Shown piece after piece: positions 14,576 to 59,843 of a DNA stretch of 64,000 nt (position 1 is the stretch's first letter; every line of letters begins with the position of its first letter). Made by a program: the position numbers and the translations under genes. Under the pieces are notes generated by a model. The model worked only from the letters and a program-made list of their open reading frames with translations, did no database searches and was not told the origin of the DNA. This DNA comes from Pseudomonas laurylsulfatiphila (GTDB lineage Bacteria; Pseudomonadota; Gammaproteobacteria; Pseudomonadales; Pseudomonadaceae), in contig NZ_NIRS01000004.1 of assembly GCF_002934665.1 (NCBI RefSeq), positions 374,501 through 438,500 on the forward strand, written 5' to 3'.

Positions 14576-16723
14576 TTAACCGAAGAAGCTCTGGCCGTTC
14601 TTGGCCATTTCGCGCAGCTTCGCGGTCGGGTGGTACAGCGCGCCCAAATCAGCGTACTGGTCAGCCAGGGCAACGAACTCTGCCACACCGATCGAATCGA
14701 TGTAACGCAGCGCACCGCCACGGAATGGAGGGAAACCAATGCCGTAGACCAGACCCATGTCGGCTTCGGCAGCGGTTTCGACGATGCCGTCTTCCAGGCA
14801 ACGCACGGTTTCCAGGCACAGCGGGATCATCATCCAGTTGATGATGTCTTCGTCAGTGACTTCGCGCTGTTCAAAGACGATTGGCTTGAGCACTTCCAGT
14901 ACCGACGGGTCGGCGACTTTCTTCTGCTTGCCCTTCTTGTCGGTCTCGTAGGCGTAGAAGCCCTTGCCGTTCTTCTGGCCCAGGCGCTTGGCTTCGTAGA
15001 GCACGTCAACGGCCGAGCGACGGTCGTCCTTCATGCGGTCCGGGAAACCTTCAGCCATCACGTCACGGCCGTGGTGGCCGGTGTCGATGCCGACCACGTC
15101 CATCAGGTAGGCCGGGCCCATAGGCCAGCCGAATTTTTCCATGATCTTGTCGATACGGACGAAGTCCACACCAGCGCTGACCAGCTTGGCGAAACCGCCG
15201 AAGTACGGGAACAGTACGCGGTTGACCAGGAAGCCCGGGCAGTCGTTGACGACGATCGGGTTCTTGCCCATTTTCTTGGCGTAGGCAACGGTGGTGGCAA
15301 CAGCCAGCTCGCTGGACTTCTCGCCACGGATCACTTCCACCAGCGGCATCATGTGCACCGGGTTGAAGAAGTGCATGCCGACGAAGTTTTCCGGACGCTT
15401 GAGGGCCTTGGCCAGCAAGGTGATGGAAATGGTCGAGGTGTTGGACGCGAGGATGGTGTCCTCTTTAACCTGGCCTTCAACTTCAGCCAGTACGGCTTGC
15501 TTGACCTTCGGGTTCTCGACGACCGCTTCCACCACCAGGTCCACGTGACCGAAATCACCGTAGGACAAGGTCGGACGGATGCCGTTGAGCACTTCAGCCA
15601 TTTTCGCGGCGGTCATGCGACCTTTTTCAACGCGGCCAACCAGCAGCTTGGCGGCTTCGGCCAGACCCTGCTCGATGCCATGCTCATTGATGTCCTTCAT
15701 CAGGATCGGCGTGCCTTTGGAAGCCGACTGATAGGCGATACCGCCACCCATGATACCGGCACCCAGTACGGCGGCCTGCTTCACGTCCTTGGCGATTTCG
15801 TCGTAGGCCTTGGCCTTTTTCTTCAGTTCCTGGTCATTCAGGAACAGACCGATCAGGCTCTGCGCGGCAGAGGTCTTGGCCAGCTTGACGAAACCTGCGG
15901 CTTCAATTTCCAGGGCCTTGTCGCGACCGAAGTTCGCGGCTTTCTGGATGGTCTTGATCGCTTCAACCGGCGCCGGGTAGTTCGGGCCAGCTTGACCTGC
16001 CACGAAACCTTTGGCGGTTTCGAAAGCCATCATTTGCTCGATGGCGTTCAGCTTCAGCTTTTCCAGCTTCGGCTGGCGCTTGGCCTTGTAGTCGAACTCG
16101 CCGGAGATGGCGCGCTTGATCAGTTCCAGCGCGGCCTCTTGCAGCTTCTCTGGAGCAACCACGGCGTCGACAGCGCCAACTTTCAGCGCGTCTTCAGGAC
16201 GGTTTTCCTTGCCGGCGGCAATCCACTCGATGGCGTTGTCGGCACCGATCAGACGCGGCAGACGAACGGTACCGCCGAAGCCCGGGTAGATGCCCAGCTT
16301 GACTTCCGGCAGGCCGATCTTGGCCTTGGTGGACATGACGCGGTAGTCCGCCGCCAGGCACATTTCCAGACCGCCACCCAGCGCGATGCCATTGATCGCG
16401 GCAACGGTCGGAACGTTGAGGTCTTCGAAATCGCTGAAAATCTTGTTGGCTTCGAGGTTGCCAGCAACAAGCTCTGCATCCGGCAGCTTGAAGTTGTCGA
16501 CAAATTCGGTGATGTCGGCGCCGACGATGAACACGTCCTTGCCACTGCTGACGATCACGCCCTTGATCGAAGCATCTGCCTTGATGGTGTCTACGGCCTG
16601 ACGCAGTTCGTTCAGGGTTAGACGGTTGAACTTGTTGACGGACTCACCCTTGAGGTCGAACTTCAGTTCGACGATGCCACTTTCAAGAGCCTTAACCGTG
16701 ATGGCTTTACCTTCGTAAATCAT
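14576..16723 (-). CDS. fadB: Fatty-acid oxidation complex alpha subunit FadB
   Basis: A 715-residue multifunctional enzyme. The N-terminal crotonase domain (about 1-190) has the oxyanion-hole GADITEFV and [16 protein letters not shown] linker follows, then the L-3-hydroxyacyl-CoA dehydrogenase domain from about 315 with the NAD-binding site [12 protein letters not shown] and the [15 protein letters not shown] motif with its catalytic histidine. The ATG at 16723 is preferred to an adjacent TTG because a GGAGA site lies 7 bases before it. It forms a complex with FadA. A PsrA-like box lies about 165 bases upstream, which suggests release by long-chain acyl-CoA. Confidence 0.98.
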
Positions 16724-16854
16724 CAACTGATCTCCACGATATGGAAGCTGAACAGTACACGTCGGACGCAGGCGAATGGCTTGGCAGGGACGCTAATCGT
16801 CAATGCTACGCCCATTCCCCCGGCACACCCGCCAACGCGATAGTCGGGATTCTG

Positions 16855-16867
16855 TAGGAGCGGTCTG
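16855..16867. repeat. Decayed single REP fragment
   Basis: GTAGGAGCGGTCT upstream of fadB matches the outer arm of the REP units found elsewhere in the window, but has no partner and no complete palindrome. Confidence 0.4.
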
Positions 16868-16885
16868 AAATACAAACGCTCAATT

Positions 16886-16899
16886 CATACGCCCGTTTG
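16886..16899. promoter_or_regulatory. Candidate PsrA box upstream of fadBA
   Basis: CATACGCCCGTTTG differs from the palindromic PsrA consensus CAAAC-N4-GTTTG by one base. It lies 163 bases upstream of fadB. PsrA control of fadBA is known in P. aeruginosa; its use at this exact site is an inference. A further CAAAC half-site lies at 16873-16877. Confidence 0.5.
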
Positions 16900-17085
16900 A
16901 TTTGGGTACGTCACCTTCACGGAATTTCCGACAATTGTCAATCGCCCGAAACACGGGTTGAAACGCGACTTTCCGGTCATATCCGTACTGCGAAGACCTT
17001 AAACACGCCGAAGCATGCAGGGTCATTCATAGAATCAATTGTTAGAAAATGCGCCCTAATTCGCTGCAGCCCGCGTTTAACAAGC

Positions 17086-17210
17086 TACGCTGGCGGAACC
17101 AAGGGGAAAATTGTGAACGCTTTAGACGAATGCCCAGCGTAAGATCAGCCAACACCGATTTACCGGCCTGCCTGGCCAACCCGCCCGATGATTTTGTCGG
17201 GCTTTTTATT
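17086..17210 (+). ncRNA. Candidate small RNA between fadB and the next gene
   Basis: A plus-strand terminator at 17183-17210 has no gene before it: fadB upstream is on the other strand. Before it lies a perfect 8-bp inverted repeat (TACGCTGG at 17086-17093, CCAGCGTA at 17134-17141) around a purine-rich 40-base loop (AAGGGGAAAA), then a pyrimidine-rich stretch. CTACGCT at 17085-17091 resembles a sigma-S -10 element, which would start the RNA near 17098 and break the stem; a start further upstream would keep it. Short frames across it have no convincing ribosome site and start. Identity to a named Pseudomonas small RNA is not claimed. Confidence 0.45.
17183..17210 (+). terminator. Orphan plus-strand terminator
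   Basis: A 6-bp stem GCCCGA/TCGGGC with an 8-base loop and a CTTTTTATT tail. It cannot serve fadB (opposite strand, reads away), so it marks an unannotated plus-strand transcript. The minus-strand reading lacks a T-run. Confidence 0.8.
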
Positions 17211-17227
17211 GCGTGCGAAAAACATCT

Positions 17228-17325
17228 GTAGGAGCGAGCCTGCTCGCGATGGACGTCAACGATGGCGCGGGAAGCCTGGCACCCCGCGGCGCTATCAGGT
17301 TCATCGCGAGCAGGCTCGCTCCTAC
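17228..17325. repeat. REP doublet with conserved 52-nt spacer, copy 2
   Basis: Inverted REP units at 17228-17250 and 17303-17325 with a 52-base spacer alignable to those at 10056-10107 (reversed) and 28281-28332. It ends 13 bases before the next minus-strand gene's stop. Confidence 0.88.
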
Positions 17326-17338
17326 AAAGGGACGGGGT

Positions 17339-17776
17339 TCAGGCAAGGGCTTTGAGCGTTGCATCGATGTGCTGCAACACCTCGGCCTCGCCCTTCTCGC
17401 CCCAATACAAGGCGATGATTTGCTTGTCGGCCTCAACCTTGTAGACATTACCCGGCAATTTTTCGAAATGATTGAGCAGCGCCTGATCTTCACAGGTTTC
17501 CTGCCATTGATTGACCCAGACACCCGGTGATTTCTGCCAGTAACTCCAGCACGCCGGCTGACTGCCACGCCGCGGACGATGGTACTGGGCGCACGGGCTC
17601 GGCGGCTCCTGGCTCAGCCAGTGTGGCCATTCCTGGGGCGCCAGCTGCATGGCCAACCCAATGCGCCGGGCCTCCATGCGCAGGGCGATGCGCCCACTCT
17701 GGGCACGCGACGGGCGCAACCATGCCAGTGGGCTGAGTACCACCAGCAGGATTGACACCACTATCCACACCGTCAT
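17339..17776 (-). CDS. Conserved membrane-anchored hypothetical protein
   Basis: A 145-residue protein from the ATG ending at 17776 (MTVWIVVSILLVVLSPLAWL). The first 20 residues form one transmembrane helix and the rest is polar and basic, with two cysteines (QPACWSYW and ETCEDQALL). A probable single-pass inner-membrane protein, matching the conserved hypothetical gene next to fadBA (PA3015 position). Function is unknown. It is divergent from the usp gene, and the 104-base gap must hold both promoters. Confidence 0.7.
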   Translation of the reverse strand: MTVWIVVSILLVVLSPLAWLRPSRAQSGRIALRMEARRIGLAMQLAPQEWPHWLSQEPPSPCAQYHRPRRGSQPACWSYWQKSPGVWVNQWQETCEDQALLNHFEKLPGNVYKVEADKQIIALYWGEKGEAEVLQHIDATLKALA

Positions 17777-17880
17777 ATCTGTACTCCCGATTCTTGATGA
17801 GCCCATTGTGTCACTTTGGAACCAATGCGCCTGAAACCAGCCATACTTACCAATATTGCAATCCTCAGGAGGAGCACCTC

Positions 17881-59732: not shown

Positions 59733-59843
59733 TGGTAACCCTACCAGCCACACCCCGGCACACAATGTCACCGCTGCGGCTGCTCCCTTCCAGGCCTGAC
59801 CGGGTTCACGGCTGATCGTTGCGGGGGGACCGATAGGGTCACC
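59733..59843 (-). ncRNA. ffs: Signal recognition particle RNA (4.5S type)
   Basis: On the minus strand the core GGTCAGGCCTGGAAGGGAGC and AGCAGCC is the conserved SRP RNA domain IV (symmetric and asymmetric loops, GGAA tetraloop). The flanking stems pair: GGTGACCCTA at the 5' end with TAGGGTTACC at the 3' end, and GTGTGCCGGGGTGTGGCTGG follows the core as in other bacteria. It binds Ffh to target membrane proteins. TACAAT at 59877-59882 (minus strand) could be its -10. Exact 5' and 3' ends are estimates. Confidence 0.95.

Follow-up and report, generated by a model that had tools for sequence, protein, structure and literature searches.

Organization of the fadB-mp intergenic region

The window analyzed here is a 64,000-nucleotide stretch of the genome of Pseudomonas laurylsulfatiphila which, among the matches listed, was closest to P. 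laurylsulfativorans (94% over 3770 bases). The region of interest is the gap at 16727–17338. On its left is fadB (14576–16726, minus strand), identified by TIGR02437 FadB (1328.5 bits) and by Pfam, and on its right is a gene labeled mp in this report (17339–17806, minus strand), whose 155-aa product has a hydrophobic start, judged by eye only, and matched no known family in Pfam and NCBIfam profile searches. Beyond mp lies a universal stress protein gene (usp) on the plus strand. The gap contains a plus-strand intrinsic terminator at 17183–17210, consisting of a stem-loop at 17183–17202 with eight pairs, followed by the tail TTTTTATT. As the initial annotation had recognized, no family-supported plus-strand gene precedes this terminator, since both fadB, the divergent left neighbor, and mp, the convergent right neighbor, are on the minus strand. 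Just ahead of the terminator is a block that was overlooked at that stage, CCGGCCTGCCTGGCC (17163–17177, plus strand; hereafter the core), which could form a GGCC-TGCCT-GGCC hairpin.

Two further elements were observed in the gap. A 35-nt element upstream of fadB at 16873–16907 (CAAACG...CGTTTGATTTGGGT) was present in all 146 genus genomes examined with at most four substitutions, 111 of them being exact, and is perhaps a putative fadB operator or promoter. Directly past the terminator is an inverted repeat (17228–17325), which we take to be REP/BIME-like; a part of it (17234–17319) scores as mir-6536 in Rfam with 31 bits, under the cut-off of 100.

The initial annotation had suggested an Rfam search of this region, and no family was found above cut-off in the small-RNA region with Rfam 15. 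The sole match above cut-off in the whole window was the bacterial small SRP RNA (59739–59835, minus strand). Two weak matches, the REP-type hairpin as mir-6536 and anti-hemB with 12.5 bits, were both below cut-off and were discarded.

The same annotation had proposed an unannotated plus-strand small RNA of about 100–160 nt, based in part on a perfect 8-bp inverted repeat. Comparison with other genomes supports the RNA through a promoter-like motif, the core, covarying terminators and synteny, and the stem-loop on which the proposal relied appears to be incidental. Both arms, TACGCTGG at 17086–17093 and CCAGCGTA at 17134–17141 (plus strand), are indeed present, but the left arm was found in only 38 and the right arm in only 9 of 114 related loci. 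The left arm also overlaps the proposed -10 element and would thus be untranscribed if that element is used, and the repeat was therefore rejected as an RNA stem. Folding of the region was no better than that of shuffled sequences, either for 17086–17210 (z -0.90) or for 17098–17207 (z -1.24).

Distribution of the conserved core

A DNA similarity search using 17000–17215 matched 24 of 57 genomes, all of them within the 36 same-genus genomes and the window's own included, while the remaining 12 of the 36 gave no match. The gene order fadB-gap-mp-usp, mp included, was retained in all 24 matched loci, and all 24 also carried the exact 14-mer CGGCCTGCCTGGCC. Although the core was part of the query, the search did not demand an exact copy of it, and 24/24 is therefore a fairer figure than the invariance of the core among the 114 stand-alone loci described below, which arises by construction as these were selected on the exact 14-mer.

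FadB was found in all 159 genus genomes, and the gap upstream of fadB was examined in 146 distinct genomes out of the 159. The exact 14-mer occurred near fadB in 124 of these, within 1.1 kb in 114 and farther away, behind another gene, in the other 10, giving core-fadB distances of about 340 nt to 1.3 kb. It was absent near fadB in 22 genomes, which indicates that the core is dispensable; in two of the 22 (L123, L128) a degenerate core was seen in place by eye. In G112 and G163, whose fadB-side core is degenerate, an exact 14-mer was observed in another, shared context (L317, L335, at about position 1500).

Relocation of the core was considered for the 32 genomes without it in the first 1.1 kb. 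These hold the 14-mer at 49 places, of which 30 were examined, and those followed by a terminator, by eye, were the loci behind the other gene (gene X, below); relocation was accordingly discarded. The core was likewise rejected as a repeat element, its 13-mer occurring only three times in its own genome and the exact 15-mer once.

Among named genomes, the exact core-terminator pattern, which misses the putida-like form described below, was found in at least 119 stretches. The named carriers include strains of P. fluorescens, P. protegens and P. jessenii. Of the 80 listed, 79 were from Pseudomonas and one from an unassigned gammaproteobacterial MAG; 74 lay opposite fadB and less than 1.2 kb away from it, and the other six were stretches without fadB but holding mp and usp. 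At the level of the order, 293 genomes were screened with the same pattern; seven carried it, and these belonged to the eight genomes of the window's own genus in the sample. A further set of 194 order genomes included four of the genus, and a covariance model (R1) scored 65–68 bits in three of these and at best 31.7 bits elsewhere; bits were used here as E-values were uninformative, 174 of the 194 genomes reaching E <= 0.01. In the window's own genome R1 scored 65.3 bits, vs. 24.6 bits for the second-best match listed.

Promoter-like element and predicted transcript

The sequence CTACGCT, which had been pointed out as a possible sigma-S -10 element, was confirmed on the plus strand at 17085–17091 and is conserved in kind. 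The motif CTANRNT was found between -130 and -10 of the core in 108 of the 114 stand-alone loci, vs. 8 of 114 on the reverse strand; these loci come from related genomes and the counts are therefore not independent cases. It was found in none of the 10 loci where the core lies in the 3' UTR of gene X. The start of the copy closest to the core varies in distance from 17 to 120 nt across the 114 loci, and the 5' part of the RNA would therefore be free to vary. The seven letters ahead of the core are A/T-rich, with a mean of 74%. A sigma-70 scanner reported no promoter in 16700–17700. Elements of the CTACGCT/CTACACT type presumably resemble the -10 of sigma-S or sigma-70 promoters, and by this likeness sigma-S may control the small RNA. 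With a start about 7 nt after the -10-like element and an end in the T run, the probable small RNA would extend from about 17098 to 17209 on the plus strand, a length of about 110 nt.

Terminator

The initial annotation had described the terminator as strong. It is conserved in kind, the hairpin being followed by a T run, but taken alone it is no better than chance, since a terminator scanner found one, vs. a mean of 1.5 in shuffled sequences. That it represents more than chance follows from its conservation across relatives. Pairing was assessed in 31 terminator sequences picked for diversity: the 57 distinct stand-alone modules supplied 22 of them, and the ten modules behind gene X supplied nine. 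In this set 96.8% of cells in the stems were paired, with 15 two-sided changes, and none of 500 shuffles gave as high a covariation score; the number of pairs with a two-sided change (154/500 shuffles) and of further pair types (104/500) was not unusual.

In a clade which we label putida-like, two hairpins come after the core, first a small one and then a long one. Eight of 18 pairs showed a two-sided change here, a result obtained in none of 500 shuffles. This set comprised 16 of 20 loci (15 distinct), with L097 and L098 (another terminator), L129 (which runs into N) and L108 being left out. Covarying terminators therefore occur in two structurally different forms, and a conserved Rho-independent terminator was found in both, the putida-like one having no long T run. 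In the 91 of 114 loci that could be scored by pattern, the distance between core and terminator stem was 5–9 nt.

Gene X and the origin of the module

In the ten genomes in which the core lies farther from fadB, it occurs 13–36 nt past the stop codon of another plus-strand gene, gene X, and is followed by the terminator; the core is then about 1.3 kb from fadB. In these genomes gene X has fadB on one side and either mp or the stress-protein gene on the other. In locus L340 it spans 505–1347 and encodes a product of about 280 aa with a signal-peptide-like start, by eye; nothing was found above Pfam cut-offs, nor any NCBIfam or PDB match. An intact gene X was absent from every stand-alone locus, from the 80 named stretches listed and from the window's genome. 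The core is thus found in two arrangements, free-standing and behind X; in ten relatives it is flanked by a stop codon on one side and the terminator on the other, but not in the window, where X is absent. The RNA of the window is for this reason better referred to as descended from a 3' UTR RNA than as being one.

A trace of the missing gene was detected in L144/L348, where an X remnant of 57 aa (42% identity, E 3e-4) lies upstream of an exact surviving core; the promoter motif is absent there. Conversely, 4 of the 14 genus genomes with an intact X have no exact core (G001, G012, G096, G168). In G012 the terminator remains, and a weak R1 match of 18.6 bits lies directly after the X stop codon, and in G096 a form of the core with two edits is present.

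Outside the genus, X was found in 22 of 145 order genomes, which marks it as an old gene; two of the 22 belong to the sister genus. In these two (L360, L361), the only ones of that genus inspected, there was no core and X ends within ~24 nt of the end of mp. X adjoins fadB in 8 of the 20 other-family genomes, representing two families (L362, L363, L366, L367, L370, L373–L375); in the remaining ones, fadB was outside the stretch compared. Altogether, X adjoins fadB in ten of the loci examined.

A FadB tree of 66 rows was split by one branch (support 100/96) into an X side of 23 rows, which includes relatives without X or without the core, and the other 43 rows. The groups were chosen after a first FadB tree with a far outgroup, long branches and an unsure root; in that tree three loci with neither X nor core (L405, L407, L408) were on the X side (support 81), and for the 100/96 split they were assigned to the rest. 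The presence of X needs at least five changes on the FadB tree, so that repeated loss of X is indicated and a single event is not supported. The simplest reading of these distributions is that X came first, that the core was a part of its 3' UTR, and that X would afterwards have been lost and a promoter acquired. On this comparative evidence the small RNA is probably of 3' UTR origin.

Search for targets

It had been speculated that the RNA might act on fatty-acid metabolism. This idea found no support, as the fadB of the window was not in the 25 best core duplex sites printed, and the core lies about 1.3 kb from fadB, behind X, in ten genomes. In other genomes (L398) fadB holds a stretch complementary to the core at 12 of 13 positions. 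This stretch is absent from the fadB of the window, and such sites are common because of GC-rich codons; fadB was therefore rejected as a target. Using two 11-nt probes (CCAGGCAGGCC and GGCCAGGCAGG) in three genomes, no start-proximal complement shared between genomes was found in the 60 places examined of the 142 listed, which are partly the same sites. Nine of the 60 were near a mechanical ORF start, and the only one of these shared between genomes was the locus of the small RNA itself. Within long ORFs, a few complementary sites did recur between genomes (L432/L440/L448, L437/L451, L443/L447 and L439/L453). The lack of a shared target in a probe search of this kind is weak evidence that there is none.

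The probe CCAGGCAGGCC, which is the complement of part of the core, occurred 40, 15, and 16 times in G078, G018, and G000, vs. 1, 2, and 6 times for the reversed control. This excess may be explained by codon use.

Interpretation

Taking the comparative evidence together, a real small RNA is very probably encoded at this locus. The stretch 17085–17210 would constitute a plus-strand small-RNA gene made up of the CTACGCT promoter, a variable 5' part, the 14–15-nt core CCGGCCUGCCUGGCC and the intrinsic terminator. The module of core and terminator would predate the stand-alone gene, having originally been the 3' UTR of the secreted-type protein gene X, as it still appears to be in some Pseudomonas. 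X would then have been lost from a large part of the genus, including the lineage of the window, and the module would have persisted under its own promoter. We regard this account as a whole, in which a 3' UTR module outlived gene X and turned into an independent small RNA about 110 nt long, as reasonably likely.

How the RNA acts is less firmly indicated. The core persists without X in 114 genomes, and without mp in L338, L340, L342, and L347, which favors action in trans. Base-pairing by the core is the likeliest form of such action, and the core would in that case pair with one or more mRNAs, perhaps aided by Hfq; that it serves as a base-pairing seed seems to us a little better than an even proposition. 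The involvement of Hfq is a guess, and is weakened by the putida-like terminator, which has no long U tail.

A different function for the same RNA would be protein binding, with the core forming a hairpin (GGCC-UGCCU-GGCC, the loop being fixed) which titrates or recruits an RNA-binding protein and is not a pairing seed. Neither stem nor loop shows a letter change across the 24 loci obtained by similarity, the hairpin is present in the predicted fold, and the probe search yielded no pairing partner, all of which would suit such a role. However, invariant pairs cannot lend the hairpin any support from covariation, and another set of 34 sequences had been selected on the exact core, which makes its invariance uninformative. 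The core also lacks an RsmA-type GGA motif, and no protein with a site like it could be named. We consider this function unlikely.

It is improbable that the region is only a terminator, bidirectional or serving convergent genes, or that it yields only a cis-antisense of the mp 3' end, with no trans-acting RNA involved. Its position between convergent units would fit, the end of mp being ~10–15 nt from the T run in some species (L015), as would the near symmetry of the long putida-like hairpin. Against this, the core stays constant while the letters of the terminator change, the four loci named above keep core and terminator though no mp was seen, and the hairpin has no T run on the minus strand. 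More doubtful again is that the core works as DNA and not as part of an RNA, being bound by a regulator or used in chromosome organization. It is short, GC-rich and conserved, and regulation of fadB is conceivable, but the spacing to the terminator stays within 5–9 nt in the loci scored while the distances to the promoter motif and to fadB vary widely, and just three copies of the 13-mer exist in the window's own genome. A small protein is scarcely credible, as the 60-aa ORF at 17049–17231, open across core and terminator, has no Pfam match and the spacings on either side of the core vary by non-multiples of three, which speaks against a conserved reading frame.

Returning to descent from the 3' UTR of X, a more detailed scenario can be drawn, to which we would give about even chances. 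The module would have been freed by deletion of X, with the RNA and not the protein being kept by selection, and a promoter would have been gained at about the time the genus began its main radiation. Since then most of the species examined would have held the 14 letters constant, with the terminator, the 5' end and the distance to the promoter being remodeled around them.

Studies focused on one model species could overlook a small RNA that is common to most of the Pseudomonas examined but was not seen in the two genomes of the sister genus. As living relatives retain both arrangements, behind X and free-standing, the route from a 3' UTR to an independent small-RNA gene can be tested stepwise, and the conserved core provides an immediate handle for finding its partner.

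Comparison with known small RNAs

No report of this small RNA was found among the open-access papers listed; subscription papers were mostly, and supplements wholly, beyond reach, and it may already be present in some published RNA-seq list. The gap beside PSPTO_3518 is absent from Table 4 of PMC3247240. According to Table 2 of PMC5568370, an RsmA-type small RNA is predicted for P. syringae DC3000 between fadB and PSPTO_3518. It would share the gap beside fadB with the RNA described here, but its arrows are on the fadB strand, whereas our RNA would be read from the other strand and contains no GGA motif in its core. RsmA-titrating RNAs of the RsmY/RsmZ type carry several GGA motifs in loops, whereas no GGA was found in 31 core-terminator modules, and there was no Rfam match.

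RgsA is a stand-alone small RNA of Pseudomonas. The predicted RNA is similar to it in being intergenic, about 110 nt long, and equipped with a -10-like element of the CTACACT type and an intrinsic terminator, but it differs from RgsA in place and sequence, and no Rfam family reaches cut-off. Small RNAs derived from 3' UTRs are represented in enterobacteria and vibrios by CpxQ, MicL, DapZ, and OppZ. As in these, the working part would be conserved and located immediately ahead of an intrinsic terminator, and in ten genomes it lies directly behind a coding gene. Unlike in these, the coding gene is gone in most of the genomes examined, and the conserved part stands alone with a promoter-like motif of its own.
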